25,120 nucleotides of DNA from a virus, in IMG/VR virus record IMGVR_UViG_3300033388_000375, positions 1-25,120 of that record. One strand, written 5' to 3'. The notes under the pieces were generated by a model. It was not told where the DNA came from. It worked only from the letters and a program-made list of their open reading frames with translations, and ran no database searches. The first letter of the stretch is position 1, and each line of letters begins with the position of its first letter. Shown here one piece after another: positions 5,171 through 20,415 of this stretch. The translations under genes were made by a program, and so were the position numbers.

Positions 5171-7969
5171 TTAATATATTGAGTAGTGTCCGTTTATTGC
5201 TGTTTCTATATTTGACTCATCGCTTGACTTGTCTCCATCGTAAACGATAAATTCTTGCATATCCCAATTGGCAAATTGAGACGCACCGTAACCTAATATA
5301 AACGAACTAATTGTGTTATCTAAACTTCCGTCAATAGTCATTAAAGTTTGTGCCAAGTTTGTTGTATATACCTCGCCCCTATTTACTGGCGTATAGGATG
5401 CACCGTTTCGTCTATAAGTGTTTGCCAAGTAGTGAGGATCATTCCGTGTATTGGTTGATGTGTTACCGCTTTGTGCGATTAACTGAAATCTTGTATTCTC
5501 ACGATATAACAAGGCTCTGCTTGTTGTTGTATTGCATACTGAAAAGAAGTAGTGTTGTCCTGTTGACGGCAAGTAATCGGTCTTCGTGCCTATTAAATCC
5601 ATATGTGAACCACCTGCCGCACCTACTCCTGTGATTACAGGCTTGCCATTGTCCTTTAATACTGCACCACTTGAAACAATTTGAGGCTGAACCGCACCTG
5701 CTCCTTGTTCCATATTTCCACCGTTACCGCTTTGGTCGTACCACTTAGTAACAAAGCCGTCTCCACTTCCACAATGCGCAAGCAATGCAGACTCGTCAAG
5801 ATTGCCACTTCCATCAAATCCAATGTCCAACTCAACACTTGAGCCATTACGTACACGCATACAATTCCCTGTGTATGCTGTCCTTAGTTTACGTACTGAG
5901 TAAGCCAATTTAACATTTGTGCCGTATGTGTCAAGTAATAACGCAGCAGGCGTTACCTCCTCGCTTGCTCTAAACGCATCCACAGCTAACAACTCAACCT
6001 CTACCATCTGCTCATCCAACATAGGATCAAAGTCTTTAACCTTGTTTAAAATAAAGCGCTGGCCCATTAGCGTGTAGTACTTAGAAAGGTCAAGACTTGT
6101 ATATTCAGTACGAGATAACAACACCTTAGTGACTAATGTCCGTGTTGTAATAAACTTCTCAAGTGTGGTCTTCCAGAATCTCTCATATAAGCCGTCTACC
6201 ATTGTTACCGTGTTGGCGTTGTAAATGCCAAGATTAACGTCATCAATGTCGTTGCTTACAATGTCTGTTAGTCTACCTAAATCGGTAGCATCTGACGGCT
6301 GTCTTGTAACGCTTACATCAGCAACGTCCACGTTTAGTATTGTGTCAAAGTCAGATACCTTTGTTACGATACTTGACAACGAAGAGCCATCACCTAACGC
6401 AAGTGTTTCGTCTGTGTGTACGTATGGATTGACCGTCATACAATTATAGATAAACGGATAGCCAAGTTGTGTGCTAAGTGTTCCGTCTGCTTGCTTGTAA
6501 ACCCATTGCCTCCAAGTTGGCGTAAACAAGTACGCCTCTAATCCTGTGTATCTACTTGTGACAGGGTTAATAACACTTGTGTGTCGTGGCATACCCATTG
6601 GTGCAGAGCCTGACTTAAACACGAACAATCTGTTTGAGTAGGAGTTGTCAGGATCAAAGGTTATCGATGTTGCTTGATTTGCTTCGTCTTCTGTGATAGG
6701 GCCAACAAAGCCTCGTGTTCTTACTCTATCAAATTTGGCTTGATAAAACTTGCTAAGGCTTGTGTTAAATGGCAGCTTAATATCTGTAATGCCTTCATCG
6801 TTGTTGCTGTCTAAGTCAATGATGTATCGTACCTCTGGCTGACTTACATTTTCATCAGTTATAAAGGGATACATATTGTCATCAATTGGATAACTCTCAG
6901 TTCCCCAAGACAAACGCACTTGCCTTTTGTACTTGCTTGTCTTGTATTGTATCTCTTGGTTTACGCTTACCTTCTCACTCCAATCAATATCGCCTGAATA
7001 GAAACCATTGTATGTTGTGCCGTTCCAAGATGTCCAATCTTGTCGTGGCTCAACCTTTAGCGTAATGCCGTCAAAACTAAAGATAAGGTTAAACGTCTTG
7101 CAGACATTCATAAAGAAGTCAAGCATTGTGACCTCAGTAGGTAGAAAGTGCCTCCAGTCTTCTGTTGCCCCAAAGGTCACGTTAGGATAGTCATCTTCAC
7201 TTCTGTCGCTGTAATATATGTTGTCAAAAAAGCCGTGTGTTGCGTTGTCGGTTAGAAAGTCACTATCTAACTCAAAGGCATCAAAGCCAAAGACCGATTG
7301 AACAAGTGGATTAGTTGCAGTTCCAAAGATGCCGTCAATAAGAAAGTCAAGCCTAAATGCAGGCCAAAAGTCTGTGCCTCGTGCGTTACGACTTGTTCCT
7401 TCGTATGTTTCGGTGCTGTCGTAGTTCTCTGCATCGCTGTCGCTGAACTTGTACATATACGGATTGACAAACACATAACTTGGATCGAGCATTGTGCGTG
7501 GATTAGGAACAACCCTTGCAAGTATATTTGCATCTGTGTAAGCAAGTTGCAAAACCGTGCCGCTTGTGTTAGTTGTCATATCCGACATTTTCAATGATTG
7601 TAATGCCACTACCCAAGACTCATTGCCACCTACAAATTGACACTCAAATTCTATTGCATCCGTATCACGTTTTGCTTTTAGGATATATACATATCCCTCG
7701 TCAATTACATTGCCGTTAACGATAACTAAGCATTGTTGTTTGTATACGTTTACAGCATCAAGGTCTGTTCCTATTACGTGAGCATATCCTAATGCTTTGA
7801 CGTTGTCCTCTGTTGCAGGAATCTTAAACGACTTGCTAAACGTCTTATTACGTTTGCTTACGTCCTGTATCTCTGCGATTGACTTGCTTAACGTAAATGG
7901 AAAGTCACCATCTTGTCCAAGTTGGATGTATTTGCCTGTTTCCTTTATGTATAGTTGTGCCGCTCTCAT
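5171..7969 (-). CDS. Tail/baseplate protein with C-terminal arabinofuranosidase-B-like (lectin-fold) domain (932 aa)
   Basis: Large tail-tip or adhesin candidate. Residues 1 to about 680 look like the baseplate/tail proteins of Bacteroidota siphophages (opening with YIKETGKYIQLGQDGDFPF and SKRNKTFSKSFKIPATEDN). The last 250 residues match the N-terminal sandwich domain of alpha-L-arabinofuranosidase B and related LamG-like phage domains: AYSVRKLRTAYTG, MRVRNGSS, DIGFDGSGNLDESAL, FVTKWYDQSGNGGNMEQ, QPQIVSSG, and a C-terminal NWDMQEFIVYDGD. Whether this domain binds or cleaves glycan cannot be decided from sequence. Receptor recognition on the capsule or surface polysaccharide is the likely role. 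The ATG overlaps the upstream stop (ATGA). Confidence 0.8.
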   Translation of the reverse strand: MRAAQLYIKETGKYIQLGQDGDFPFTLSKSIAEIQDVSKRNKTFSKSFKIPATEDNVKALGYAHVIGTDLDAVNVYKQQCLVIVNGNVIDEGYVYILKAKRDTDAIEFECQFVGGNESWVVALQSLKMSDMTTNTSGTVLQLAYTDANILARVVPNPRTMLDPSYVFVNPYMYKFSDSDAENYDSTETYEGTSRNARGTDFWPAFRLDFLIDGIFGTATNPLVQSVFGFDAFELDSDFLTDNATHGFFDNIYYSDRSEDDYPNVTFGATEDWRHFLPTEVTMLDFFMNVCKTFNLIFSFDGITLKVEPRQDWTSWNGTTYNGFYSGDIDWSEKVSVNQEIQYKTSKYKRQVRLSWGTESYPIDDNMYPFITDENVSQPEVRYIIDLDSNNDEGITDIKLPFNTSLSKFYQAKFDRVRTRGFVGPITEDEANQATSITFDPDNSYSNRLFVFKSGSAPMGMPRHTSVINPVTSRYTGLEAYLFTPTWRQWVYKQADGTLSTQLGYPFIYNCMTVNPYVHTDETLALGDGSSLSSIVTKVSDFDTILNVDVADVSVTRQPSDATDLGRLTDIVSNDIDDVNLGIYNANTVTMVDGLYERFWKTTLEKFITTRTLVTKVLLSRTEYTSLDLSKYYTLMGQRFILNKVKDFDPMLDEQMVEVELLAVDAFRASEEVTPAALLLDTYGTNVKLAYSVRKLRTAYTGNCMRVRNGSSVELDIGFDGSGNLDESALLAHCGSGDGFVTKWYDQSGNGGNMEQGAGAVQPQIVSSGAVLKDNGKPVITGVGAAGGSHMDLIGTKTDYLPSTGQHYFFSVCNTTTSRALLYRENTRFQLIAQSGNTSTNTRNDPHYLANTYRRNGASYTPVNRGEVYTTNLAQTLMTIDGSLDNTISSFILGYGASQFANWDMQEFIVYDGDKSSDESNIETAINGHYSIY

Positions 7970-8145
7970 TGCATTTTGTCCATTGAATCCATTTGGTCAA
8001 TTAACCAGGTAACCAATACGTCACATTGATCATAAGTTAAGTCCATCGAAAACGTAGCCTCGTCCTCGTTGTCAAACGTCACGCAAACGTAGTTGTCTGC
8101 GTTGCGAAGTTTGGGATACATTACTTTCAACTCTGTTGTTGTCAT
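7966..8145 (-). CDS. Small acidic protein between two tail genes (59 aa)
   Basis: A 59-codon ORF that overlaps both neighbours by 4 nt (ATGA at each end), which strongly supports translation. The sequence starts MTTTELKVMYPKL and has an acidic core (FDNEDEATFSMDL) followed by WLIDQMDSMDKMQ. It has no signal peptide or membrane segment. I do not recognise the family. It may be a minor tail protein or a chaperone for the adhesin that follows. Confidence 0.7.
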   Translation of the reverse strand: MTTTELKVMYPKLRNADNYVCVTFDNEDEATFSMDLTYDQCDVLVTWLIDQMDSMDKMQ

Positions 8146-9458
8146 ACGTCTGCGTATCTGTAAGAGAAAGAAAGTTTCTGTGCTCTGTTGTTCTTAATTA
8201 CGTCAACCTTGCCATCGTTAATTGATATCCTGCGTATGTTGTCGTACCCTGTGTCAGGATGTACAACCTCAAAACTGCTCGCATAGTTAGTCTCTGTTTC
8301 TACGACATAGTGCACAGGACTTGCAAAGAAGTCAAGTATTATCTCCCTGTTTTGTTCTGGCGTGTACGGCAGCGTGTTGTTTACCTGAAACTCAAACTCA
8401 CTCTTTGGGTTTATTGCTCGCTGTCGTGCACCTGTCAAAAGATAAGCACCTAAGTCATCGGTAAATGCACCAAAGGCGTCAGTATTGACAAGTGTCGCAT
8501 TATCTCGACTACTAACAACAGCCTCGTTAGTCTTAGTGTCTAAGGTCAGCACATCGTGCACACCAAAGCGATTCATATAGATAAATGTTGTAGGGCATCT
8601 AACATTGTACTTTTCAGGTCGCAAAAATGTAATTGTGGCTTTGTTAGAATTAGTTGAATTTACTAATGAGACATCTATTTGAAATACTGTGCTATCAAAA
8701 GACGCAGGACCAATAGTCCAACCTGACTCCCCTGACGCAGTAGATAGAGTTGCAAGGTCATTGTAGTTTACAGGCAACGCTACAAGTTTAGAACCTGATA
8801 CAAGACCACCAAGCACAGACACGTTGACACTTACAGTACCTAATGGAGAACCTGAAGCGTCATTAGCACTTACATTTAGAAAGGTAAACCCTGAGGCAAA
8901 AAAGCATACTCTACTATACTCTGTGAGGTAGTTACGTGTAGTCCGTCCATCTTGCAACTTAAAGTCTACGTCATTTCCACTTGCCGTTGAGCCTCTAAAG
9001 TAAGGCAAGTTTGTTAGATAGTATCGGTTTGCAATAGTCTCTTGTGCTGTTCCGTTAGCGTTATAAACTTGATGCTTGGCCTTTGTCATATAAAAGGCGT
9101 TGGTGTCTGTCGTTGCATCAGTCGTGCCGTCTGTCTCTATCTCGGTAATTTCAACCTGTATCTTCTTGAGCAGGTGATCATAATAGTGTGGAGTAACCGA
9201 TGCATCAAAACTGCAAAAGTCATCCTTGATAATAGACAAAAATCCGTTGATATAATCGCTTAGATTAAACGTAAACTCGCTACTTATCTGTGGAGCATAA
9301 TAAGCAGGAACGTCAGTTAGGTTTGTTCCTGTGTCATCTTGCAACTGAAACTTTAAGTACTTAATGCTTGCGTTGTTGCTTGTTGCCTTAACCACGCACG
9401 GATATTCTGAACTCCAAAACGTATTGGCTGTTGGTTGTGATGTTATAGTGATTGCCAT
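8142..9458 (-). CDS. Structural tail protein, beta-rich (438 aa)
   Basis: A 438-residue protein rich in Thr, Ser, Asn and beta-forming residues, with no catalytic motif. It opens MAITITSQPTANTFWSSEYP, has an Ig-like-looking middle (VSVNVSVLGGLVSG), and ends with FEVVHPDTGYDNIRRISI and KLSFSYRYADV. It sits between the gp10-like neck protein and the adhesin-like tail protein, the place of a baseplate or distal-tail protein in related phages. It could alternatively be a tail-tube-associated protein. Its start overlaps the upstream gene by 16 nt and its stop overlaps the next ATG. Confidence 0.6.
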   Translation of the reverse strand: MAITITSQPTANTFWSSEYPCVVKATSNNASIKYLKFQLQDDTGTNLTDVPAYYAPQISSEFTFNLSDYINGFLSIIKDDFCSFDASVTPHYYDHLLKKIQVEITEIETDGTTDATTDTNAFYMTKAKHQVYNANGTAQETIANRYYLTNLPYFRGSTASGNDVDFKLQDGRTTRNYLTEYSRVCFFASGFTFLNVSANDASGSPLGTVSVNVSVLGGLVSGSKLVALPVNYNDLATLSTASGESGWTIGPASFDSTVFQIDVSLVNSTNSNKATITFLRPEKYNVRCPTTFIYMNRFGVHDVLTLDTKTNEAVVSSRDNATLVNTDAFGAFTDDLGAYLLTGARQRAINPKSEFEFQVNNTLPYTPEQNREIILDFFASPVHYVVETETNYASSFEVVHPDTGYDNIRRISINDGKVDVIKNNRAQKLSFSYRYADV

Positions 9459-9871
9459 TGCTTTCCTATTGTGGCCTCAAAAGATGCCTGTGCTTGTTTA
9501 TCTAATTCACGCAGTATGTCTGGCTCTACGGCCTTCATTGTATCTGCGATAACGTTTAATTTGTTCTTGTCCTTTGGCGCACCTAACTGCCCTATCTTGC
9601 GTGCAATGGGAAATGCAGCCTCCTTTGGTATACCTCTTGCCACGCACCATTCCATTATACGGTTAAGTGGTGGTTGCTTACCAGGTGCTCGGCCTTGCTC
9701 TACGTACTGCCATTGCTCTGCACCCATAATGCGTAACACCATATTCCCTGCATCAAACTCAGAAAACAACGAGGCGGATGTACGTCCTGTGGCGTTACGG
9801 TCTTTAAGTTTCATTGTAGCCTTTAGGCCGCTAATGATCTCCTGTGCAATTTTGTCTACGTTAATCGTCAT
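9443..9871 (-). CDS. HK97-gp10-like neck / tail completion protein (142 aa)
   Basis: The central segment (WQYVEQGRAPGKQPPLNRIM, EWCVARGIPKEAAFPIARKI) follows the gp10-like pattern of a YA-x-fvE-x-GR-x-PGK-x-PP block, then a Trp-containing helix and an A-x-x-IA-x-x-I helix. These proteins join head and tail. The ATG at 9871 is preferred because it overlaps the upstream stop by 11 nt; an alternative start at 9895 overlaps more. The C-terminus overlaps the next gene by 16 nt. Confidence 0.72.
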   Translation of the reverse strand: MTINVDKIAQEIISGLKATMKLKDRNATGRTSASLFSEFDAGNMVLRIMGAEQWQYVEQGRAPGKQPPLNRIMEWCVARGIPKEAAFPIARKIGQLGAPKDKNKLNVIADTMKAVEPDILRELDKQAQASFEATIGKQWQSL

Positions 9872-10334
9872 CGTGTACACAAAAGTCTGTTTCAACGTCC
9901 ACGTTGAAGGTTACGTATAAAGCACAAAGGTTAAGTTGTGAACTATAAGGTATGTGTCGCATCTCTAGACCACCTGTTACTTGTGTCTCTGGATACTCGC
10001 TTACATTATCCAACAAGGTAAAGGTCAACGTCTCAAAGCCGTTCATCTTAGTCCACCAATAATCCCAACGGTTTACGGCTGTTACTGTTTGGTCTGCTTG
10101 GTGTAGATTGTCAGCCAACAACAGGACAACTTGATAACGGATGTATTGACCGCCTGTGTACTCTACGTCTGCTATATTAGCGTTTTGCAACATTACTCCG
10201 TAGTACGGCATAGTTTGGTTGGCTAGTTTGTTTAACTCAGACTCGTCCCAGATGTAACCATAAGATGTTATACCGTTAGCTGTAAAGGCGTGTTCTAGTC
10301 TTGCCTTAACTTTGGATAGTGATCCTTGCGACAT
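9861..10334 (-). CDS. Probable tail terminator / head-tail joining protein (157 aa)
   Basis: A 157-residue protein with no certain family. Its position directly before the gp10-like gene, its size and its composition suit a tail terminator or minor neck protein: SKVKARLEHAFTANGI, then beta strands YIRYQVVLLLADN and FETLTFTLLDNVSEYPE, then LNLCALYVTFNVDVETDF. The ATG at 10334 touches the stop of the upstream gene at the same base. The role is inferred from gene order and fold-like pattern, not from a diagnostic motif. Confidence 0.55.
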   Translation of the reverse strand: MSQGSLSKVKARLEHAFTANGITSYGYIWDESELNKLANQTMPYYGVMLQNANIADVEYTGGQYIRYQVVLLLADNLHQADQTVTAVNRWDYWWTKMNGFETLTFTLLDNVSEYPETQVTGGLEMRHIPYSSQLNLCALYVTFNVDVETDFCVHDDD

Positions 10335-10675
10335 TACCCTTCTCTATGTAGTACAATTAAAAAACCTGTTGTACTAACAAGTGGCAACATTGGCTCGTCT
10401 TTATCAACCTTTTGCGTTTGTGTTTCTAAGACAGGTGTTACTGATACAACTTGATATCCTCCGTCAGGGTTGTTACTTTTGTCAAACTTGTTAAGGTGCA
10501 CATCTAATGCTCTTGTGATTTGGTTGTTTTTTGTGCCGTATGATCTCATAGCATTTAAAGACGTATCCATCTTTTTATGCTTGGTTTCAATCCTGTCGTA
10601 CTTGTCTCTTATGTTTTGCTCTTGTTGCTTTACCTCCTCGTGTTGTATAGGAAGAAATAGTGTGATTAATGCCAT
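10334..10675 (-). CDS. Unknown protein at the head of the neck/tail operon (113 aa)
   Basis: The N-terminal half is a charged helix (EEVKQQEQNIRDKYDRIETK) likely to form a coiled coil. The C-terminal half is strand-like (YQVVSVTPVLETQTQKV, STTGFLIVLHREG). I do not recognise the family. It is the first gene after a 400-bp gap and so probably the first gene of a separate transcript or of the continuation of the terminase transcript. A minor head-tail or tail protein is the simplest reading. Confidence 0.55.
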   Translation of the reverse strand: MALITLFLPIQHEEVKQQEQNIRDKYDRIETKHKKMDTSLNAMRSYGTKNNQITRALDVHLNKFDKSNNPDGGYQVVSVTPVLETQTQKVDKDEPMLPLVSTTGFLIVLHREG

Positions 10676-10769
10676 TAGTTATGTTTGCCCTAAATATAAG
10701 TAATATAATCCAAAGTCATTTTGCACTATAATTGTATTATGTTATTTTCTTTTCTTTTCTATTCTTTTA
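10676..10769 (-). promoter_or_regulatory. AT-rich upstream region of the neck/tail operon with possible promoter
   Basis: This very AT-rich stretch precedes the first gene of the tail operon. On the minus strand it contains a TTTG followed 12 nt later by TATATTTA, near the Bacteroidota -7 consensus TAnnTTTG but with too short a spacer. A promoter here is plausible but no clean match is visible. Confidence 0.25.
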
Positions 10770-10821
10770 GCATTGCTACGGCATTGCTACGGCATTGCTA
10801 CAGCATAAAAGTGTTGCTACG
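10744..10821 (+). repeat. Ori-like module 2: TTTTC-rich tract plus 11-bp GCATTGCTACG iterons
   Basis: A pyrimidine tract of TTTTC-like units (10744-10769) runs into three head-to-tail 11-bp units: GCATTGCTACG (10770), GCATTGCTACG (10781) and GCATTGCTACA (10792). A related GTGTTGCTACG follows at 10811. The layout (tract, TTTTAGCATTGC junction, 11-bp phase) is the same as in the repeat inside the replication gene at 18659-18725. This region is non-coding, so the repeats are not explained by protein sequence. Confidence 0.75.
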
Positions 10822-10837
10822 TATACAAAAAAATGTT

Positions 10838-10878
10838 GGGGGCGCAAGTTTTTAACGCCCTTTTTAACGCCCTTTTTT
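10838..10878 (+). terminator. Plus-strand intrinsic terminator with duplicated 3' arm
   Basis: GGGCG (10840-10844) pairs with CGCCC (10856-10860), extended by G-T pairs, and is followed by T5. The block TTTTTAACGCCC is then repeated, giving a second CGCCC (10868-10872) followed by T6, so two alternative hairpins are possible. The strongest T-runs are on the plus strand. On the minus strand a T-run comes only after a 6-nt gap, so weak bidirectional action is possible. Confidence 0.55.
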
Positions 10879-10899
10879 ATGAAATAACAATAAAAAGTG

Positions 10900-10927
10900 T
10901 ATCTTAGAGTTCAAGAAGGATATCTTG
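10900..10927 (+). promoter_or_regulatory. Possible plus-strand -7-like element and small hairpin before the terminator
   Basis: TATCTTAG (10900-10907) resembles the Bacteroidota -7 box TAnnTTTG with one mismatch. The longer string TATCTTAGAGT recurs just before the ATG of the plus-strand chaperone gene (21185-21195). No -33 TTTG is seen at the right distance. CAAGA-AGGATA-TCTTG (10912-10927) can form a 5-bp hairpin. Confidence 0.25.
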
Positions 10928-10939
10928 TGTTTAGTTCAG

Positions 10940-10971
10940 AGCCTCAGCCTTAATTGGTTGGGGCTTTTTTT
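10940..10971 (+). terminator. Plus-strand intrinsic terminator
   Basis: AGCCTCAGCC (10940-10949) pairs with GGTTGGGGCT (10956-10965) over ten positions, two of them G-T, around the loop TTAATT. The stem runs into seven T. Read on the minus strand the same stem has A7 before it and no T-run after it, so it acts only on plus-strand RNA. No long plus-strand gene lies upstream. Confidence 0.7.
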
Positions 10972-10985
10972 ATTACCTTAGACTT

Positions 10986-11075
10986 ATGGACTTACAAAGC
11001 ATCTTGATCATTGTGTTTTGCACGGCTTACATCTTAGGCACGTTCTATTGGGTTGGTCGTACTATGGACGATTGA
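10986..11075 (+). CDS. 29-codon plus-strand ORF, single membrane helix
   Basis: MDLQ is followed by a hydrophobic stretch (SILIIVFCTAYILGTFYW) and then VGRTMDD, a plausible single-pass microprotein with a charged C-terminus. Its TGA ends at 11075, directly abutting the TerL stop on the other strand at 11076. The terminator at 10940-10971 lies 14 nt before the ATG, so expression would need readthrough or a start within the leader. It is short enough to be chance. The support is the transmembrane composition and the exact fit to the gap. Confidence 0.35.
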   Translation: MDLQSILIIVFCTAYILGTFYWVGRTMDD

Positions 11076-12230
11076 CTACTTGATACTAAATGCTCTACTG
11101 CTGTGCAACTTGGCGTAGCGACTTGCATCAATTGCGTGGTCTAAGTACTTGCGTGGCGTGTCTAGGAGTATGCCTGACCGTGTACGCTCGTAGACGTAAT
11201 TACGTAACTCCTTGATTAGATTGATTGACCGCTTAGTTACCACAAACGGCTTTGCTTTCATCATAGCAAGTCCACCATCTACTGAGCCTCTAAACTTCTT
11301 TACGCCCATTATTTGAACACCGTGCTGTCCTAACTGACGGATAACAGTCTCGTGTGATGGGTCTGCCACAACCATACGCCTAACATCTCCTGCTCGTATT
11401 ACAGACATTAACTTGTCAAAGCCAAAGCCTGCTTCATAGTGTATCTCATCGTAATAGTCCACACCATCGTGCTGCCACAGGTCGACAAGTGTTGTTGGGT
11501 TAGATTCTCCAAAGTCCATACCTGAGCAGATGTATCTTGCATTCTCAGGCAAGTTACTAACTGACCAAACAGACGGAGGAAAGATAACGCCTGTTGGTGT
11601 ACCAATTTCGCCAAGACCAAAAACATTAAACCAATCTTTGTCGTGCTTCCTACTCTCTATGTTGTCAATCGTTACTTGGTCAAGTGCTTCGTTGTGCTTG
11701 TAGTTTAGTTTAACAAATCGCACCTTATCTCTAAAGTCCTCCTCTGGGTGTCCAAGTATCTCGGTGTGCGCCCAAAACTCTGCAACAGGGTTGAAGTCAA
11801 TGATTGACCACTTGCGTGTTCTAATAAACAACTCTGACCACGCTTCGTAACTGACGTTGTTAGCCTCGTTAATAAACAAGTAGTCACGCCTTGCGCCTCG
11901 CAGCTTATCGCCTTGGTCAGCACTAAAGAACTCAAACGTTGCCTTCTTGATCTTGTACGTGTGGCTTGACTTGTTGTGCTGCCGTTCACGATACATATCG
12001 TTAGACGTTAGTATAGTAAAGAAGTCACGCATTGCACCACGCCTTAGATGTGGTAATGACTCCGATACAATGCTTATCAACCCCACAAGGCTGTTCTTGT
12101 GTGCTGCTAAGATTAGGTATTGCAGGACTGCATACGTCTTACCTGCTGACGTTCCACCTTGCACGATAACAATACGTCCCTCGTCCTGTATTGCCTCGCC
12201 TACTTGTCCAAATGCTGATGTTGTTCTCAA
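11076..12230 (-). CDS. terL: Terminase large subunit (384 aa)
   Basis: The ATP-driven DNA packaging motor and headful/cos nuclease, acting at the portal. The Walker A motif is GGTSAGKT (residues 25-32) and Walker B is DYLFINEA (116-123). The C-terminal RNase-H-fold nuclease has Asp239 in GMDFGESNP, VVADPSH (287-293) and KYLDHAIDASRYA (about 361-373), giving a complete set of acidic residues. The start is a TTG at 12230 that overlaps the TerS stop (TTGA). The next Met is at residue 67, after Walker A, so TTG is the only reasonable start. At 384 residues it is a compact member of the family. It is followed by the 400-bp gap rather than by the portal. Confidence 0.95.
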   Translation of the reverse strand: MRTTSAFGQVGEAIQDEGRIVIVQGGTSAGKTYAVLQYLILAAHKNSLVGLISIVSESLPHLRRGAMRDFFTILTSNDMYRERQHNKSSHTYKIKKATFEFFSADQGDKLRGARRDYLFINEANNVSYEAWSELFIRTRKWSIIDFNPVAEFWAHTEILGHPEEDFRDKVRFVKLNYKHNEALDQVTIDNIESRKHDKDWFNVFGLGEIGTPTGVIFPPSVWSVSNLPENARYICSGMDFGESNPTTLVDLWQHDGVDYYDEIHYEAGFGFDKLMSVIRAGDVRRMVVADPSHETVIRQLGQHGVQIMGVKKFRGSVDGGLAMMKAKPFVVTKRSINLIKELRNYVYERTRSGILLDTPRKYLDHAIDASRYAKLHSSRAFSIK

Positions 12231-12589
12231 ATGTTATGTAGTACGTCCATTGCTATCTGTGACATTGGTTGTATCACAATTTGTGGCTCTCCTGTGTTCT
12301 CTATCTCTTGGCGTTCAACATACCCTCGCTTCTTGCCTTTGGTCTTTAGATAGAAGATCGTTGCCGTTGTATTGCCGTCCTTAATCTGTTTGTGTAGGCT
12401 TGACTCTGCAAAGTCCAATGCGATGTCGTTTACATCTTCAATTGATGCTTTATAATCCTTGTCCTCTCGCATCCATCGGTAGTGTGTCTCTCTGCTAATG
12501 CCGACAGCCTTGCAAGCACTTGTTACAATGCCTAGAGACTTCTCCATTGCCTCTACCATTGCCTTTTTATTGATGTCACTTTTTGTCAT
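12227..12589 (-). CDS. terS: Terminase small subunit (120 aa)
   Basis: A DNA-recognition subunit for packaging. The N-terminal half is a helix-turn-helix: AMEKSLGIVTSACKAVGISR, then ETHYRWMREDKDYKASIEDV, the typical TerS pattern of a recognition helix and an acidic helix. A central oligomerisation-type helix (ALDFAESSLHKQIKDGNTTA) is followed by IFYLKTKGKKRGYVER, very common in small terminases. The start overlaps the ParB-like stop (ATGA), and the stop overlaps the TTG of the large subunit. The packaging site is not visible to me. Confidence 0.9.
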   Translation of the reverse strand: MTKSDINKKAMVEAMEKSLGIVTSACKAVGISRETHYRWMREDKDYKASIEDVNDIALDFAESSLHKQIKDGNTTATIFYLKTKGKKRGYVERQEIENTGEPQIVIQPMSQIAMDVLHNI

Positions 12590-13113
12590 ATTGCTGTTGT
12601 TACGAAGTATGCACCACTATACTTTCGGTCAATCAGTTCTTGTATGTCAACCTCTGCCTTCTGTAATTGTTCTGCACTCTCAAAGGTAATCTTTATTGTT
12701 GAATGTTTTTCTTGCTCATCTTCAGGCTCTTCAAACACCTCGTCAAGTACTTGTGGCACATCTAACGCCCAATCATTAAGGTCGCTAACATCCCACTCGT
12801 TTGCAAGCAGTTCCCAATCCCAGTCACCAAAGCCTACATTGTCCTTGATAATGAACTGACGTTGCTCTTCCTCTGTTAGGTCATCAGCGTACACAACAGG
12901 TACTTCGGTCAGTCCTATGTGCTTACACGCCTTTAGTCGCATATTGCCACCCAGAACGATGTTGTCCTTGTTCAATACAATGGGCCTCAGTTCAAGCATA
13001 CGTGGAAACTCCTCGATTGACTTTACCAACTTGGCAAACTTGTCCTTGTTTATGCTTCTTGGGTTGTTTGGGTTCTGCTTAATCGCAGACAACTTCATTA
13101 TTGTAGTGTTCAT
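12586..13113 (-). CDS. ParB/Srx-fold nuclease-like protein (175 aa)
   Basis: The N-terminal 90 residues follow the ParB N-terminal (ParB/Sulfiredoxin) fold: MKLSAIKQNPNNPRSINKD, SIEEFPRMLELRPIVLN, then the conserved GGNMRLKACKHIG that corresponds to the GxxRxxA box, and VPVVYADDLTEEEQRQFIIK. The C-terminus is acidic (EVFEEPEDEQEKHS) and ends in a small domain. In phages these proteins often sit next to the terminase and a DNA methyltransferase and may act in DNA modification or packaging rather than partition. No ParA is present nearby. Both ends overlap their neighbours (ATGA). Confidence 0.82.
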   Translation of the reverse strand: MNTTIMKLSAIKQNPNNPRSINKDKFAKLVKSIEEFPRMLELRPIVLNKDNIVLGGNMRLKACKHIGLTEVPVVYADDLTEEEQRQFIIKDNVGFGDWDWELLANEWDVSDLNDWALDVPQVLDEVFEEPEDEQEKHSTIKITFESAEQLQKAEVDIQELIDRKYSGAYFVTTAI

Positions 13114-13637
13114 CGTACCTTAAATATATCACCGCTTCGGTGTAAGTGTATAGTGTTCTTGTCAACAACGTCTTCTGGATCAATAGACAGTCCTTGATAA
13201 CGTACCTCAAAATGTAGGTGTGGCCCTAACGAGTTTCCTGTACTTCCTACAATACCAACAGGACATCCTTGCGGAATCCAATCTCCTTCTTCAACAAGCA
13301 ACTCTCTTAGATGTGCGTAATACGTCTCTAAGCCGTTCAAGTGTGTAACGATAACTAAATACCCATACCCTCCATTGTAGCCTTTTTTAGCGTATCGTAC
13401 ACGACCTAACCACGAACTCTTGACCGTATCTCTGTTGTTGTGTGATATGTCAAGTCCGTGATGTATTCTTCCGTTACGATATCCGTGTCCACTAATTAGA
13501 ACACCATCAACAGGATAGTGGATATCTGTTAAGTGTAGCGTTGCCGTGTCTGGCAAGCTTACAGGTCGGTAATGTATTTGTGCCGTTGCGGTCAATGCCC
13601 ATAAAAGCATTAGAACCATTGCATAGCGATTAGCCAT
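13110..13637 (-). CDS. Exported M23 metallopeptidase (175 aa)
   Basis: A peptidoglycan endopeptidase of the lysostaphin type. A Sec signal (residues 1-20, hydrophobic VLMLLWALTATAQ) suggests export to the periplasm without a holin. Zinc and catalytic residues are all present: HxxxD in HHGLD (His59, Asp63), His109 in YYAHL, and HLHFE (His140, His142). GSTGNSLGPHLHFEV is the standard block. It may assist endolysin at lysis or open the wall locally during entry. The gene overlaps the ParB-like gene by 4 nt. Confidence 0.9.
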   Translation of the reverse strand: MANRYAMVLMLLWALTATAQIHYRPVSLPDTATLHLTDIHYPVDGVLISGHGYRNGRIHHGLDISHNNRDTVKSSWLGRVRYAKKGYNGGYGYLVIVTHLNGLETYYAHLRELLVEEGDWIPQGCPVGIVGSTGNSLGPHLHFEVRYQGLSIDPEDVVDKNTIHLHRSGDIFKVR

Positions 13638-13677
13638 AATATTAGTGTTATTCCAATTGATGTTAAAATAATGTCGA

Positions 13678-14568
13678 TCATAGTTCGGTAAGCATTGTTA
13701 ACAATTCTTCTTGTGGGAACATATCGCTTTTATACTTGTTGGTGTTGCTGTGTGTCCATAGACCTTTGACTCTGCCATAGTACGCATCTACATTCCACTC
13801 AAATGCTGCTGCACCTTTCTCTTTTACAAGTTCTGGTAATCCTTTCCTAACGTCAATGTTGTCTCGATTGCCAATAAACTCAATAAGGTGTTTTAGTGCG
13901 TTCAGTTGCTTGTCGCTGTATCTGTGCCAATACTGTTTATTCTTAAACGGCTTGTCAAGTTTAACAATCTGATCTTCGTGGACTGTATGCCCTGCATAGC
14001 ACTTGCCTTTTACAATGTAACTAAAGTTGCACACCTCGATGCCAACGCTGTCCGTGTGCATTGCTTGGTTGCCGTTCTTGCCTAAGTGCCAAGCATAACC
14101 TCCGTCAGGAATACACTTTACAATCTCGCCATCGTACTCAAAGTCTGTGTTGAATATTGACGGCCCTCCTATAACAAACTCTGTTGCAATACGTCCACGC
14201 TTATCACGTCCCCAATTGTCAATACACTTGTAAGGATTGTGCCAACCTGCTGTGTGATGCAGAAACAGATACTCCTTTTTAGTAGGCCCTTCAAGATACT
14301 CGCCTTTCGGTAAGTAGTGGTTTCTAATGTCTAAGTCTGCAAAGTGTTCAGGCTGTGAATCCGCCTCTTGTTTGTCTGTGGTTGCAAGCTGCAACATTGT
14401 CCACGTCTTAGGGCCAACAATGCCGTCAGACCATAGTCCTTTGTTCTTTTGATACTCCTTTACGAAGTGTTCCGTGATTGGGCCAAATATGCCATCCACG
14501 TCAATTCCAAGTGCTTCTTGGATAACTCGCACATTGTCACCAGTACATCCTTGATATAATACTACCAT
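13678..14568 (-). CDS. Endolysin: peptidoglycan-binding domain plus N-acetylmuramoyl-L-alanine amidase (296 aa)
   Basis: The N-terminal PG_binding_1 domain (residues about 10-60) contains VRVIQEALGIDVDGIFGP and SDGIVGPKTWTML. The amidase_2/PGRP domain follows (about 95-285) with FLHHTAGWH (zinc His105 region), AWHLGKNGN (His161), DSVGIEVCN, and the third zinc ligand in WTHSNTNKYKSD (His273, with Asp282). All expected ligands are present, so it should be active. No signal peptide is seen, so release would need the holin, which lies 9 kb away. It is separated from the M23 gene by 40 nt and from the methyltransferase by 13 nt. Confidence 0.92.
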   Translation of the reverse strand: MVVLYQGCTGDNVRVIQEALGIDVDGIFGPITEHFVKEYQKNKGLWSDGIVGPKTWTMLQLATTDKQEADSQPEHFADLDIRNHYLPKGEYLEGPTKKEYLFLHHTAGWHNPYKCIDNWGRDKRGRIATEFVIGGPSIFNTDFEYDGEIVKCIPDGGYAWHLGKNGNQAMHTDSVGIEVCNFSYIVKGKCYAGHTVHEDQIVKLDKPFKNKQYWHRYSDKQLNALKHLIEFIGNRDNIDVRKGLPELVKEKGAAAFEWNVDAYYGRVKGLWTHSNTNKYKSDMFPQEELLTMLTEL

Positions 14569-14581
14569 AATCTAAAAATAA

Positions 14582-15208
14582 TTAAAACATTTTAAGTTGT
14601 GCTATGTGGTTGTTATAACGCTTAACTGCTGCGTTGTAATATTCCTCGTCTAATTCGTATCCTTCTAAGTCATAGCCTAAGTTGTGGCAAGCAATTGCAA
14701 TAGAGCCACTCCCTAAGTGCGTATCAAGTATCTTATCTCCTTCTTTTGCGTAATTCATTAAAAGCCATTCGTAAAGTGCAATTGGTTTTTGGGTTGGATG
14801 AAATTTTGTTCCTGTACAAGTGTTACCCTCTAAATTTCCATAATACCTGTAATCAAATTGCTTGGCATTTTTATTAAAACTTGTCCAAGCCAATTCTCCA
14901 TCAGCAAAATTTGATACAGGGTTTCCTTTGTGCCAATAAATAAAACATCTTCCACCAAAACCCCATATAAAAGGAAAGTAATTGCCTCCCCAAATAATTT
15001 GATTTTTACTAACTCTAAATAATTCTTTAAAATATACCTCATTAGGTGCTACATTCCACTCTCTATGTTGCTCTTTTTGTCTAAAATTTAAAATATTTGT
15101 TTTCTTATCTCCATAGCCATAAGGTGGATCAACAATAGCCAAGTCAAACTGATTATCTTGCATTTTAGCAAGGGCCTCCATACAATCTCCGTTGTGTAGG
15201 CTTATCAT
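14582..15208 (-). CDS. DNA adenine methyltransferase, beta class (208 aa)
   Basis: S-adenosylmethionine-dependent N6-adenine methyltransferase. Catalytic DPPY (residues 27-30) lies N-terminal to the cofactor motif LDTHLGSGSIAIAC (161-174), with FHPTQKP (136-142) before it, the order of the beta class (PF01555). No restriction enzyme is adjacent, so it is probably an orphan phage enzyme that protects phage DNA. The ATG at 15208 overlaps the upstream stop (ATGA) and is preferred to a GTG at 15217. The middle of the gene (about 14800-15120) is visibly richer in A and T than its neighbours and uses AGA and AAT/AAA codons more, suggesting recent acquisition. Confidence 0.93.
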   Translation of the reverse strand: MISLHNGDCMEALAKMQDNQFDLAIVDPPYGYGDKKTNILNFRQKEQHREWNVAPNEVYFKELFRVSKNQIIWGGNYFPFIWGFGGRCFIYWHKGNPVSNFADGELAWTSFNKNAKQFDYRYYGNLEGNTCTGTKFHPTQKPIALYEWLLMNYAKEGDKILDTHLGSGSIAIACHNLGYDLEGYELDEEYYNAAVKRYNNHIAQLKMF

Positions 15209-15402
15209 TCCTCGCACACCGTTATAATGCCTCCGTTGATCACATCGCTACCAATTAACACCACACTTCCGTTAGGGTTAACGTAGAAGAAACCTGTGTC
15301 TCGCCCTCCTCTAATCATTTTGCTTAACTCGGTAACCTCTATGCCTCGACAAAACATTGTTGTCATCTCTCCTTTGTACTCTACATCAATTCTTACTCTC
15401 AT
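15205..15402 (-). CDS. Unknown small protein (65 aa)
   Basis: A 65-residue protein predicted to be mostly beta strand (MRVRIDVEYKGEMTTMFCRG, TGFFYVNPNGSVVLIGSD). It has no recognised motif and no membrane segment. It overlaps the HNH-like gene by 17 nt upstream and the methyltransferase by 4 nt downstream, so it is clearly part of the operon. It may be an accessory of either enzyme or a host-takeover protein. Confidence 0.6.
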   Translation of the reverse strand: MRVRIDVEYKGEMTTMFCRGIEVTELSKMIRGGRDTGFFYVNPNGSVVLIGSDVINGGIITVCEE

Positions 15403-15658
15403 AGTACTGTCGTTTTAACGCTTCTTTGCGTTCATTAAATAAATCATACCGCTCCTGCTTCTCGTGTTCTTCTGGTAGCATTAGCATAATGTTGTCAGGG
15501 TTTAGCTTAAACGAAGGATACTGCCCTTTGCTTAGTATGTGAGCAAACTGCCAATGCCATTGATAATGATGGCGTGGTAATAACGGCTTACCTGATACCT
15601 CGCTTACGTGCTCACGAGTTGCCCAAACAAACTCAAATAGTTCCTTCTGACTCCGCAT
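15386..15658 (-). CDS. HNH-like small nuclease-related protein (90 aa)
   Basis: The segment HHYQWHWQFAHILSKGQYPS, FKLNPDNIMLMLPEEHEKQE resembles the core of HNH-type proteins: a His in a strand-like segment, a KG-x-YPS turn, Asn in NPDNI, and His in EEHEK. The zinc-binding cysteines of many HNH enzymes are missing. Similar small proteins occur in Bacteroidota phage replication operons, possibly acting on recombination intermediates. Activity cannot be claimed. It overlaps both neighbours by 17-26 nt. Confidence 0.55.
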   Translation of the reverse strand: MRSQKELFEFVWATREHVSEVSGKPLLPRHHYQWHWQFAHILSKGQYPSFKLNPDNIMLMLPEEHEKQERYDLFNERKEALKRQYYESKN

Positions 15659-15851
15659 AAGTTTTTACGACTGCTGTGAGTATTTTCTCCACTACCTCAT
15701 CGTTCTTCATCAATGCAAGTAACCCCTCTGCACACTTGTTGGCATCTCCGTGCATTCCTGCCGTGACTACGCCTTTACGATTGACGTACACTACCAATGC
15801 GTGATCAATGTCTTGAGGAACTGCATCCTTTATTTTCTGTCTTAATCCCAT
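15633..15851 (-). CDS. Unknown small protein (72 aa)
   Basis: A 72-residue alpha/beta protein (DHALVVYVNRKGVVTAGMHG, then helix CAEGLLALMKNDEVVEKILT). No recognised family. The start lies 2 nt after the stop of the PD-(D/E)XK-like gene, and the end overlaps the HNH-like gene by 26 nt. Similar small proteins with VVYVNxxGxV are frequent in phage early operons, but I cannot name a function. Confidence 0.55.
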   Translation of the reverse strand: MGLRQKIKDAVPQDIDHALVVYVNRKGVVTAGMHGDANKCAEGLLALMKNDEVVEKILTAVVKTYAESEGTI

Positions 15852-15853
15852 AA

Positions 15854-16306: not shown

Positions 16307-16655
16307 CGCTGTGTGCTTGTGCTGCCGTTGTAGATTGTGTCTTACCACCACCAACAAACTCAAAGCTACTAACCTCAACGTCTACTGCGTATCTGTCAAT
16401 TCCGTTTTTGTCTTGGTATTTTCGATGTCGAGTCTTTCCTTCAATGTAGATTTGGTCACCTTTGTTTACGTACTTGTGTAGCGTTTCGGCTGTCTTGCCA
16501 TACGCCACCACATTGTGCCAATCTGTGCGTTCCTGCTTCTCTCCGTTCTTAGTCCAACGCTCAGACGTTGCCACACTAAACTTGCAAATTGTCGTACTTG
16601 CATCAACGATTTCTGGTTGTTGCCCAACCCTTCCTAAAATTAACTGCTTATTCAT
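16290..16655 (-). CDS. ssb: Single-stranded DNA-binding protein (121 aa)
   Basis: OB-fold SSB that coats ssDNA during phage replication and recruits partner proteins. Seen: MNKQLILGRVGQQPEIV, KFSVATSERW, TDWHNVVAYGKTAETLHKYV, KGDQIYIEGKTRHRKYQD, which are the standard bacterial SSB blocks. The linker is short. The C-terminal tip DALPF keeps the acidic-aromatic end (DxxPF) that docks helicase and nuclease partners. The start overlaps the zinc-ribbon gene stop (ATGA). It belongs to the replication operon with DnaB and the Rad52-type protein. Confidence 0.95.
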   Translation of the reverse strand: MNKQLILGRVGQQPEIVDASTTICKFSVATSERWTKNGEKQERTDWHNVVAYGKTAETLHKYVNKGDQIYIEGKTRHRKYQDKNGIDRYAVDVEVSSFEFVGGGKTQSTTAAQAHSDALPF

Positions 16656-17120: not shown

Positions 17121-17139
17121 ATCCCTAATTTACTAAATT

Positions 17140-18444
17140 TTAAAATGGCGTAAAGTCCACATTGTCAACATTCCAATTCTCGTATCGACTACTTTGACCG
17201 ACAAATTGCAAGTCACAAACAAGGCACTCGCCTTCTCTGTTTTTCTTTATTATGCCGTATGCCTTTCCCTTTTGCGTTTCGCCTCCTCTTATTGGATCAT
17301 CTGGTAACTCGTAGTAATCAGGACGATATAAAAAAGTAACCGTATCAGCATCCTGCTCAATACCTCCAGAGGCACGCAAGTCAGAAAGTTGCGGAACTTT
17401 ATTAGGTCGTGATTCAACGCTCCTGCTAAGTTGATGCAACAGCACAATTGGTATGTCTAACTCGTTTGCCATTGCGTGAATGTTCTTAGAGTTCTGCGTT
17501 ACTCCTCTGTATTCATCTCCTCCGTCATCCATAAGTCCAAGGTAATCCATAACAAGGATAAACTTTCCAAACTTAGCCTTCCATTTTAGGCACTTAATAC
17601 GTAGCTGTGCAAAATTAATGCTTGGCGTATCGTCAACCTCAAAGTCTAAGTCCTGCATTGTAGTGTGTGCTTGGTCGTACTTCATACGCTCAGAATCGTT
17701 TATCCTGTTAAGACGTAACCGTTCTGTCTGGATACCGCTTAAATACGATTCAACACGTAGTGCAATCTTGTCTCTAATCATTTCGCCACTCCAGAAGCAA
17801 ACAGGCAACTCCCTGCAAGCATTAACCGCAATACTAACTGCAAACGCTGTTTTTCCCATTGCAGGCCGTGCTGCAACAACGTGAACCCCTGTGTACAATC
17901 CTCCGATTGCCTTGTCCCATTTATGCAGCCCTGTGGGCACTCCCATCATACCGCCCTCTCGTGTGCTACGTTCTGCAAGTTCTCGGTTTATAATTGTGGC
18001 AAGTCTCTCAGGCTTTACCTGCTCAAAACTTGTAGTCATTGCGTTAACTCGCTGTTGTACGTTGTCAAGCAATTCATTAACCGATACGTTATCCTTCTCG
18101 GCATCCTGTGCAATCATTAAACCTAACAACTCAAGTTCTCGCTTTATGGCTTTGTTCTTTAGTATCCAAGCGTGTGCCTCGATATTTGCGGAACTGCCAA
18201 TCTTATTAGTCAAAGCTGCTACGTCATAGGCTTTAAGGTTGCTACGCTTTGCTTTTAGTTTATCGCATACGGTTAATATATCAATAGGATTGCCGTCTGC
18301 GTTTACCTCAACAATAGCCGTATACACCTCCTCGTGCCATCCAGTAAAGTAATCAGGTTGCAAAATATTAGATACAACGTGATACGCACCTTTTTCCATT
18401 AGGATTGATCCTAATACTATTACCTCAATTTTCTCGTGTTTCAT
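17140..18444 (-). CDS. dnaB: Replicative DNA helicase, DnaB family (434 aa)
   Basis: Hexameric 5'-3' helicase that unwinds DNA at the phage fork. The N-terminal DnaB domain (residues about 5-100: LGSILMEKGAYHVVSNIL, PIDILTVCDKL) is followed by the RecA-fold motor: Walker A ARPAMGKTA (192-200, first Gly replaced by Ala), WSGEM with catalytic Glu221, Walker B FILVMDYLGLM (Asp300), the QLSR sensor (338-341), and DLRASGGIEQDADTVTFLYR. The length is normal for the family. The ATG overlaps the initiator stop (TAATG). The upstream gene is the likely loader/initiator. Confidence 0.96.
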   Translation of the reverse strand: MKHEKIEVIVLGSILMEKGAYHVVSNILQPDYFTGWHEEVYTAIVEVNADGNPIDILTVCDKLKAKRSNLKAYDVAALTNKIGSSANIEAHAWILKNKAIKRELELLGLMIAQDAEKDNVSVNELLDNVQQRVNAMTTSFEQVKPERLATIINRELAERSTREGGMMGVPTGLHKWDKAIGGLYTGVHVVAARPAMGKTAFAVSIAVNACRELPVCFWSGEMIRDKIALRVESYLSGIQTERLRLNRINDSERMKYDQAHTTMQDLDFEVDDTPSINFAQLRIKCLKWKAKFGKFILVMDYLGLMDDGGDEYRGVTQNSKNIHAMANELDIPIVLLHQLSRSVESRPNKVPQLSDLRASGGIEQDADTVTFLYRPDYYELPDDPIRGGETQKGKAYGIIKKNREGECLVCDLQFVGQSSRYENWNVDNVDFTPF

Positions 18445-19028
18445 TAGGCAAATTTATAATTAGGTTTCGACTTTTCCTCTTTATTCCACCACGTTCTTGC
18501 AGTAGACTTCCAATTCTTAATGGCTATGTTGTTAGACTTAATCCATCCTTGGCTGTCATAGTAAAGAAAAAACTGAGATGCCTCAGATGCAGGTTTACCA
18601 TTTTCCTTAAAGTAATCAGCAACCTGTTTCTCTGTTGGCTTAATAAACTTATGTTCTGTTTTTTTCTTTTCTTTTCTTTTAGCATTGCCGTTGCTATGCT
18701 GTTGCATTGCCGTGGCATTGCCGTTCCATCGTTTATGTGCTTTCTCTTGTGCAATCTTAGTGCGATTTACAGCACCTTCAACCTCCTCGCATATCCAATC
18801 AATAACCACCTGGTCATCCACAATACGCATAAAGCCACGCTTGAACAATCGGTTAATTGCTTTGTCGTTGCGGATATACTCTCTAAGCATCTCCTCGTCA
18901 ACATCACACTCACGAGTAAACAACAAGTTGCAGCAGTCAATAAACACACCTTTTACCGTGTGCGATTCCATCATTATTCGTCCTGTTATCCACGTTTGCG
19001 GATAAAATTTAAACCACTTCAGTGCCAT
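18444..19028 (-). CDS. Lin1244/Lin1753 (DUF4373)-type replication initiator / helicase loader (194 aa)
   Basis: The N-terminal domain (residues 1-95) opens MALKWFKFYPQTWI and contains KGVFIDCCNLLFTRE, DEEMLREYI and FKRGFMRIVDDQ, the winged-helix pattern of this family. A low-complexity linker (about 100-125: RWNGNATAMQQHSNGNAKRK, then EKKKTE) is encoded by 11-bp iterons and a TTTTC tract. The C-terminal DnaD-like part has PTEKQVADYFKENGKPASEA, FFLYYDSQGW and NWKSTARTWW. Placement just before dnaB fits an origin-binding loader comparable to lambda O, whose gene also contains its origin. The gene overlaps the DnaA-domain gene by 20 nt upstream. Confidence 0.85.
   Translation of the reverse strand: MALKWFKFYPQTWITGRIMMESHTVKGVFIDCCNLLFTRECDVDEEMLREYIRNDKAINRLFKRGFMRIVDDQVVIDWICEEVEGAVNRTKIAQEKAHKRWNGNATAMQQHSNGNAKRKEKKKTEHKFIKPTEKQVADYFKENGKPASEASQFFLYYDSQGWIKSNNIAIKNWKSTARTWWNKEEKSKPNYKFA
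18659..18725 (+). repeat. Ori-like module 1: TTTTC tract plus four 11-bp iterons inside the initiator gene
   Basis: The tract 18659-18680 runs through TTTTAGCATTGC into four units in exact 11-bp phase: GCATTGCCGTT (18682), GCTATGCTGTT (18693), GCATTGCCGTG (18704) and GCATTGCCGTT (18715). One unit is diverged. The layout matches the non-coding repeat at 10744-10821. Iterons within an initiator gene next to an easily melted tract are the arrangement of the lambda origin. Confidence 0.75.
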
Positions 19029-19413
19029 CGCTCATAAGGTTTTTAATTACGTTTAATCTGCCTCCGATTGTTGGCTTACCCTCTAACAATTCCAGAATCT
19101 TTAAAGCTTTGTCGTGCTTTGTGTCTACATTGCTGCGCTTCATATAGTACACAAAGTCAGCATAACGATTAGCATAGTCCTCTTCTGTGTCCATCCTATC
19201 GTTAAACTTATTAATTGAGTTAATAATTGTAGCGTGATTGCGGCACAATGTTCTGCCTATTTCTGTAAGATTCATTGAGGTTTCCTCTCTAAGAAAGTTG
19301 CACATAAATTGCCTTATTTCAATCAACTTGTTTCTACGATTCGCACAAGTTATGTGTGCTCTGCTTAAGTCATAGTTTTCTTTAATACGTTTAAAAACGT
19401 GTCTTGCATCCAT
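19009..19413 (-). CDS. Stand-alone DnaA domain IV-like DNA-binding protein (134 aa)
   Basis: Residues about 5-95 align by eye along the whole DNA-binding domain IV of DnaA: FKRIKENYDLSRAHI, CANRRNKLIEIRQFMCNFLR, then the helix-turn-helix MNLTEIGRTLCRNHATIINS, corresponding to the DnaA signature region (S-LPEIG...RDHTTVLHA). The usual Asp-His-Thr-Thr reads Asn-His-Ala-Thr. There is no AAA+ ATPase domain. It may bind the phage origin or compete with host DnaA. Overlap with the initiator gene (20 nt) supports a shared role. It starts after a 33-bp AT-rich gap. Confidence 0.78.
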   Translation of the reverse strand: MDARHVFKRIKENYDLSRAHITCANRRNKLIEIRQFMCNFLREETSMNLTEIGRTLCRNHATIINSINKFNDRMDTEEDYANRYADFVYYMKRSNVDTKHDKALKILELLEGKPTIGGRLNVIKNLMSDGTEVV

Positions 19414-19446: not shown

Positions 19447-19731
19447 TTATCTGTTGGCAGCACGCTTTGCTGCCTCAGTACTGGAATAGCTGTCCCTTTC
19501 ACGAATAGGATCTAACTGATTTTGTTTGGCTCTGTTAATTAGGACAAGCCGTTCCATCATATCAACCTCCTCGGCATCTGTAAGTATTGCCTCTCTCTTG
19601 TCATCGTTATAACTTGACGTAGATAACAGCCTTTCCAGATACATCAGTTGATTGTACTTAATCTCACGAGCCTCTTCCTTGCTGTTTACAAGGTCGTTAA
19701 TCGTGTTGTACGTTATAAACTCCCAACTCAT
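19447..19731 (-). CDS. Unknown charged helical protein (94 aa)
   Basis: Charged, helix-rich protein (MSWEFITYNTINDLVNSKEE, LTDAEEVDMMERLVLINRAK, ending EAAKRAANR). No recognised family. The start overlaps the Rad52-type gene stop by 4 nt (ATGA). It probably belongs to the recombination/replication set as a small accessory protein, but the sequence itself shows no function. Confidence 0.55.
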   Translation of the reverse strand: MSWEFITYNTINDLVNSKEEAREIKYNQLMYLERLLSTSSYNDDKREAILTDAEEVDMMERLVLINRAKQNQLDPIRERDSYSSTEAAKRAANR

Positions 19732-20201
19732 TGCTTCTTGATTAGTACGTATTGCTGAGTAAACTGACCTTCATTAATCATAGTGGTCATTTGGTCAAGC
19801 CGTCCACGTATCTCACGAGGCACAAAACGCATTTCGCCTTCTATTTGTACAAGCGGATAGTCATACAAATCTCTGGCCACGCCAAATTTTACAGCACAGC
19901 GTTTAAGTGAATCGCTTATACCGCCTTTAGTTGACTCAATGGCTGTATCGTCTGCACCGTCTTCTTTACTAATCCATCCGTCCTCGCCTTTAACAGACAG
20001 CGTACACATTACACCTTTACCTTTCCACTCTCTGTAAGTGTCTTGCCATCCCTCAGGGCCAAAGGCATCGTCAAATCTATTCATCACAGCACGGCTTTGG
20101 ATGTAGGGCACGATTGTAGTCTTGCCACCTTTCGCACTTTGTACACGCCATTCAATCTCGTTAGGCTGTATCGGCTTTCTTAGTATCTCGTAATTAGTCA
20201 T
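19728..20201 (-). CDS. Rad52/Rad22-type single-strand annealing protein (157 aa)
   Basis: Recombinase that anneals complementary strands. The pattern SRAVMNRFDDAFGPEGWQDT, EWKGKGVMCTLSV, KEDGADDTAIESTKGGISDS, LKRCAVKFGVARDLYDYP matches the Rad52/DdrA-like core: an AVMNRLDD-like helix, a GW turn, a beta hairpin, and the A-x-K-G-x-x-SDSLKRAA-x-x-FG-x-GRYLY block. The start MTNYEILRKPIQPNE at 20201 overlaps the upstream gene by 8 nt; the longer reading to 20282 would cover most of that gene. Together with SSB and the nuclease candidate it forms a recombination set. Confidence 0.85.
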   Translation of the reverse strand: MTNYEILRKPIQPNEIEWRVQSAKGGKTTIVPYIQSRAVMNRFDDAFGPEGWQDTYREWKGKGVMCTLSVKGEDGWISKEDGADDTAIESTKGGISDSLKRCAVKFGVARDLYDYPLVQIEGEMRFVPREIRGRLDQMTTMINEGQFTQQYVLIKKQ

Positions 20202-20415
20202 TTTTAAAATATTTGTATAAATCATATAATCCACTTGCACATTCGTCAAGTTCACACATATCGATAACGCAAATCGCATCACCGACTGACAACTGAAATA
20301 CGTTGTCGTTGTTTGTTAGGGCAACCATTGCACGCTCGTAGTGCATAGGTCGCTCGTGTTTCTTTAGTAACAAGGTTGTTACTTGTTCAGGGTTTAGTTT
20401 ATCCAATAGTGTCAT
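20194..20415 (-). CDS. Unknown small acidic protein (73 aa)
   Basis: A 73-residue helical acidic protein (MTLLDKLNPEQVTTLLLKKH, FQLSVGDAICVIDMCELDE). No recognised family or membrane segment. It overlaps the upstream gene by 17 nt and the Rad52-type gene by 8 nt. Small early proteins of this type often interfere with host enzymes, but that is context only. Confidence 0.55.
   Translation of the reverse strand: MTLLDKLNPEQVTTLLLKKHERPMHYERAMVALTNNDNVFQLSVGDAICVIDMCELDECASGLYDLYKYFKND

Follow-up and report, generated by a model that had tools for sequence, protein, structure and literature searches.

A two-part iteron module within the initiator gene and beside terL of an uncultured phage, and its reading as a candidate pair of initiator-binding sites

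The virus record IMGVR_UViG_3300033388_000375 raises the question of why a repeat array located in the non-coding gap beside terL reappears inside a gene for a putative replication initiator, and which function, if any, the two copies have in common. The window (the whole stretch of 25,120 bp that was analyzed) is a linear virus record with almost all of its genes on the - strand. In addition to an SSB-like protein, which is also encoded in the window, the features relevant to this question are as follows:

10334..10675, - strand: 113-aa gene that opens the late/tail operon; the gap module is always upstream of it
10676..10736, - strand: promoter-like block GTGCAAAATGACTTTG ... TATATTTAGGGCAAAC, preceding the first tail-module gene and conserved (alignment, 16 gaps)
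10737..10769, - strand: gap 5-bp microrepeat tract (AGAAN)n, a putative DNA unwinding element that is kept in relatives
10770..10813, - strand: gap iteron array, four 11-bp units with core GCAWTGC, three perfect and one degenerate, non-coding
10938..10967, + strand: strong terminator-like hairpin; no + strand gene precedes it in the window
11076..12230, - strand: terL (Terminase_3 / phrog_2)
12227..12589, - strand: terS-like gene
17140..18444, - strand: DnaB-type replicative helicase, overlapping the initiator stop
18444..19028, - strand: initiator gene, a distant DUF1376/Lin1244_N relative
18649..18681, - strand: intragenic 5-bp microrepeat tract, coding for KRKEKKKTEH
18682..18725, - strand: intragenic iteron array, four 11-bp units, encoding the linker GNATAMQQHSNGNAK
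19009..19413, - strand: DnaA domain IV-like DNA-binding protein (Bac_DnaA_C, E 8.8e-11), directly upstream of the initiator
19728..20282, - strand: Rad52/Erf-like single-strand annealing protein

The same two-part module is present in both places, comprising four 11-bp iterons with a palindromic 7-bp core (GCAWTGC) and a 5-bp tandem repeat of the unit AGAAN. On the coding strand, four units of core plus four free bases are followed by TA and then by the tract. The gap module (10737-10813) is non-coding and lies between terL and the 113-aa gene; in + strand letters, its tract TTATGTTATTTTCTTTTCTTTTCTATTCTTTTA (10737-10769) stands directly before GCATTGC units at 10770, 10781 and 10792 and a degenerate GCATAAA at 10803. 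The intragenic module (18649-18725), within the initiator gene, reads TTATGTTCTGTTTTTTTCTTTTCTTTTCTTTTA (18649-18681), followed by GCATTGC at 18682, GCTATGC at 18693 and GCATTGC at 18704 and 18715. Lag-5 identity is 0.77 in the gap tract and 0.74 in the intragenic tract (shuffle p=0.001 for each). The copies are 7.9 kb apart in identical orientation and agree at 33 of 36 positions over the stretch up to the first GCA, and the joint TTTTAGCATTGC has two occurrences in the whole record, one per module. Array scores of 25 (gap) and 27 (intragenic), out of a maximum possible 28, exceed those of all 300 whole-window shuffles under a dinucleotide model (mean 18.4, best 22). Together with the sequence read, these scores confirm the original prediction that both modules are present; its start for the gap module, 10744, was about 7 bp late, the real start being 10737, and the TTTTC tract that it described exists in both copies, but the 5-bp tandem repeat of this tract had been missed. 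Whole-record pattern scans detected no third array in the window or in its relatives, and records holding both modules have exactly two arrays. A scan with a single 15-mer performed near chance level and was given no weight.

The intragenic copy does encode a predicted disordered linker, which lends some appeal to the idea that the repeats are a chance or coding by-product, and the original prediction had allowed that they might be excused as a low-complexity linker. This excuse fails in the gene itself, where the 11-bp period is out of frame, such that the units encode differing residues (GNA, TAM, QQHS, GNA), and where synonymous codons follow the core. A synonymous choice could break the core at seven codons, and the window keeps the core at all seven, where its own codon usage predicts 2.5 (P=5.6e-4); in other initiators the core is kept at 6 to 8 of 7 to 8 codons, with P values that are not independent, the initiator genes being related. 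Because of the out-of-frame period, the core-keeping codons and the non-coding copies, the DNA itself is shown to be the conserved object in the module. Chance or linker coding was thus rejected on the strength of the shuffles, the 11-bp frame, the codon test and a non-coding copy in 21 of 21 records, and retains practically no probability.

A terL search retrieved 26 close records (69-100 per cent). The gap iteron array is kept in all 21 records that reach the gap (19 of the terL set, L208 and the window), several of which are near-identical, so that independent lineages are fewer; the intragenic array is present in nine of nine initiators found by protein similarity. Both sites are complete in five genomes only. 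The 5-bp tract also occurs in the gaps of ten relatives (lag-5 identity 0.54-0.83, p 0.01 or better). Iterons, tract and promoter-like block are constant and the remaining gap content is variable, with methyltransferase or opposite-strand genes inserted between terL and the gap module in some relatives. Comparison with related phages therefore sustains the predicted duplication: relatives keep the gap iterons despite changing gap content, and both copies share one layout, which makes a duplicated module, with predicted binding of the initiator, the best reading. In two distant relatives, L025 and L026, the gap module is inverted, with the tract on the terL side, and the cores in the L025 gap are GTAWTAC, a symmetric change of the palindrome; the L025 record is a fragment that does not include the initiator gene. 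Among 44 terL relatives at greater distance (30-41 per cent), not one has an array downstream of terL, and the gap copy thus marks the clade of the window. A profile search for more distant initiators yielded no new loci.

Several observations concern the surroundings of the two modules. Methyltransferase-like insertions occur downstream of terL in L004, L009, L012, L017 and L019. In L011, L018 and L022 an opposite-strand gene lies in front of the hairpin position, for which reason the hairpin of the window looks like a remnant of a gene since lost. To the left of the gap module (6001-11000) the GC skew is close to zero (-0.05 to 0), and to its right (11001-20000) it is about -0.08 to -0.23, a shift that may reflect either replication or gene content; at 21196-21903, the sole large + strand ORF amid - strand genes, the skew is reversed. 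A lone DnaA-box-like TTATCCACG is present at 18986 (+), at the start of the initiator gene. DnaA boxes were rejected as the identity of the iterons, the window having only one TTATCCAC (18986). An RNA element was likewise discarded, as no Rfam match was obtained and the inversion in L025 and L026 speaks against an element of the transcript.

The window initiator has no Pfam match at E 0.01 (below family cut-offs). Profile-profile alignment relates it to DUF1376/Lin1244_N (hhalign probability 98.5 per cent, E 1.9e-15) over residues 5-117, a range that includes part of the array-coded region. An AlphaFold model built from 41 sequences has a mean pLDDT of 81, an earlier model from eight sequences having been poor (pLDDT 50). 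The model predicts a winged helix-like N-terminal domain (about residues 14-101, with pLDDT >90 across much of residues 20-80), and a helical C-terminal domain (133-181), joined by a linker predicted to be disordered (about 102-131); array and tract encode this linker, with the array coding residues 103-118. VIA-align Z values of 5-6.6 were obtained against winged helices of ORC2, Cdc6, DnaD-N and Rep, where Z <8 may indicate no more than a common arrangement, and kinship with these proteins is only suggested by the predicted fold. Judging from sequence, this initiator very probably binds the iterons. The neighboring DnaA_C-like protein also counts against DnaA boxes as the iterons: between the window and L022, whose cores are identical, the initiator retains 59 per cent identity and the DnaA_C-like protein only 29 per cent.

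Outside the clade, the exact triple GCAWTGC-N4-GCAWTGC-N4-GCAWTGC occurs in at least 119 viral stretches (about 0.1 expected by our estimate) and, across many phyla, in 101 genome stretches (about 0.5 expected), and many of the genome matches are unrelated simple repeats. Among the matches listed, 40 of 75 viral ORFs overlapping arrays belong to DUF1376 and 20 of 75 to Lin1244_N; the corresponding genome counts are 17/61 and 13/61 (together 30/61), both ORF sets having been chosen by the pattern itself. A universal iteron in DUF1376 was rejected, since the 289 alphaproteobacterial genomes contain 16 loci and this array only at the seed, which had been selected for it; a lag search detected 12-bp repeats at some of the other loci and no repeat at the remainder. 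As far as these sequences indicate, the GCAWTGC iteron is common among DUF1376-type genes and not universal.

The position of the module ranges from inside to beside or far from DUF1376/Lin1244_N genes. Sixteen of 52 genes have two arrays separated by about 160-230 bp; initiator genes with such a pair are found in L210 (14697/14888), L211 (8536/8728), L256, L465 and others. In such double-array genes, the first array is within the coding part for the DNA-binding domain. The cultured phages Arctus_1 and morran9-1 carry both arrays within the initiator gene, with no perfect triple array elsewhere in their whole scanned records, and a distant second site is therefore not general. L233 and L246 have the array immediately next to, and not within, a DUF1376-like gene; L263 has one, together with a 5-bp tract, between late genes and close to a prohead-protease-like gene. 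L264 has two arrays 3.3 kb apart (8481 and 11750), apparently in two initiator-like reading frames. The Lin1244-type genes of L465 and L458 exhibit a GTAWTAC core in both arrays of each gene, which fits recognition by one protein. A related initiator gene in L482 (Cellulophaga phage Nekkels_1) shares the architecture of the window's with a different core, as it combines an 11-bp repeat TTCAACA-N4 with a 5-bp tract at about gene nt 377-500.

Behind the array, the tract repeats every 5 bp in 22 of 26 Lin1244-type tails and every 6-7 bp in 19 of 24 DUF1376-type tails; the Bacteroidota-type phages are the 5-bp exceptions. Unit length tracks initiator type in the array tails of L213-L290 and L330-L409; a strict rule assigning 5 bp to Lin1244 and 6-7 bp to DUF1376 was dropped, being broken by the window, morran9-1, Arctus_1 and Nekkels_1. 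The microrepeat unit length possibly corresponds to the single-strand footprint per protomer.

The nearest precedent for such a pair of sites is Bacillus phage SPP1, in which gp38 (G38P) binds oriL inside gene 38 and an intergenic oriR that interrupts the late genes; oriL and oriR each consist of direct repeats and an AT-rich element and are about 12-13 kb apart, and gp38 bound at oriR is believed to halt replication forks and set off the formation of concatemers (PMC6316719, PMC3485210). By analogy, the four 11-bp sites of each module would be bound by the winged-helix initiator of the phage, and the 5-bp tract would be the likely place of strand opening and of initiator/helicase loading. The intragenic copy is likely to be an origin, most plausibly the primary (theta) origin. 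The gap copy would act like oriR: replication could start there late, or forks could stall at the bound site some 8 kb from the first origin, or both; stalled forks could then lead to a recombination-dependent switch to concatemers, which would be packaged by terminase. SSB-like and Rad52/Erf-like proteins are expected for such a switch. Because the copy in the gene has a lambda-type layout, the late copy has the SPP1 layout and these two proteins are encoded, an SPP1-like pair, with an origin in the initiator gene and, about 8 kb distant within the late region, a second initiator-binding site, is the favored and reasonably probable reading. On a slightly narrower balance, the gap copy would start replication or block forks, in preference to controlling transcription or titrating the initiator.

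The main rival to the SPP1-like pair is control of the tail promoter, in which the tail operon would be regulated by the initiator, or by the tract serving as an UP-like element, and late transcription would be coupled to replication; the original prediction spoke of a second control site and did not name the late promoter. The module is always upstream of the first tail gene, close to the TATATTTA box of the promoter-like block (10690-10698 in the window), and stays on the tail-gene side even in relatives where additional genes separate it from terL; a location 58-94 bp upstream of the box fits a transcriptional role as well. However, the distance from the iterons to this conserved box varies (58, 69, 72, 82 and 94 bp), the module is inverted in L025 and L026, and the 5-bp tract is kept though unnecessary for an operator. 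Variable spacing and inverted relatives speak against a phased operator and not against looser control, and the operator is overall regarded as a rather unlikely explanation.

The constancy of tract and location also bears on the proposal that the gap copy limits replication by titrating or handcuffing the initiator. Plasmids such as P1 and F use extra iteron sets outside the origin in this manner, but titration would make the tract needless and a place by the tail promoter arbitrary, yet both are constant, and this role appears improbable. Still more doubtful is a packaging signal recognized by the terminase small subunit. The gap copy is indeed downstream of terL, and SPP1-type pac sites contain repeated motifs; nevertheless, the same module recurs in the initiator gene, elsewhere lies inside or beside the initiator gene and not in terS, and is missing downstream of terL in the 44 more distant relatives, which leaves this possibility very little weight.

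Taken more widely, the GCAWTGC/11-bp iterons with a 5-7-bp tract may well be a widespread phage origin module, with DUF1376/Lin1244_N as a large initiator class of swappable core specificity and with a second copy that became fixed next to the tail operon in this clade, where it would serve as a late origin or a barrier to forks; this combined reading is held with slight preference. No paper joining DUF4373/Lin1244/DUF1376 with replication initiation was found in the open-access literature, nor was one there on the GCAWTGC core as an iteron, subscription papers being outside the scope of this search, and the wider module is probably, not provably, new to the literature. It would suggest what two Pfam families of unknown function do. 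Annotations seldom include phage origins, and a recognizable module could locate origins in many uncultured phages. The dual-site arrangement has until now been known mainly from SPP1, and its likely counterpart in a virus of Bacteroidota-type bacteria would represent a second, apparently independent lineage in which the theta-to-concatemer switch can be studied outside Bacillus.

Among known systems, the DnaA-trio of bacterial oriC resembles the tract in being a short tandem motif adjoining double-strand binding sites, and is thought to guide the initiator on single strands. Its unit is 3 bp, in contrast to 5 bp in the window (6-7 bp in many DUF1376 types), and its initiator is DnaA, unlike that of the window, where the function of the tract is putative. 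The DUF1376 and Lin1244_N families (the latter formerly DUF4373) share remote homology with the window initiator and GCAWTGC 11-bp arrays in many members, whereas most unselected alphaproteobacterial DUF1376 genes are without this iteron.

The lambda origin, to which the original prediction appealed, holds as a precedent for iterons in the linker part of an initiator gene and gives way to SPP1 oriL/oriR as the closest model for the pair. As in the window, lambda ori has four iterons and an AT-rich element within the central part of the initiator gene (gene O) that codes for the linker, and the DnaB gene adjoining the initiator gene is a further likeness to lambda-type origins; the lambda iterons are longer (18 bp), the protein belongs to another family and there is no second copy. 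The resemblance to SPP1 is one of layout. SPP1 differs in its spacing of 12-13 kb versus about 8 kb and in its use of the loader gp39, for which no counterpart was identified in the window. Both phages have one site of repeats and an AT-rich element in the initiator gene and another that is intergenic in the late region, both encode a single-strand annealing protein, an SSB and a DnaB-type helicase, and the moron-like insertion spot of this clade by the gap module is comparable to the segment around oriR.
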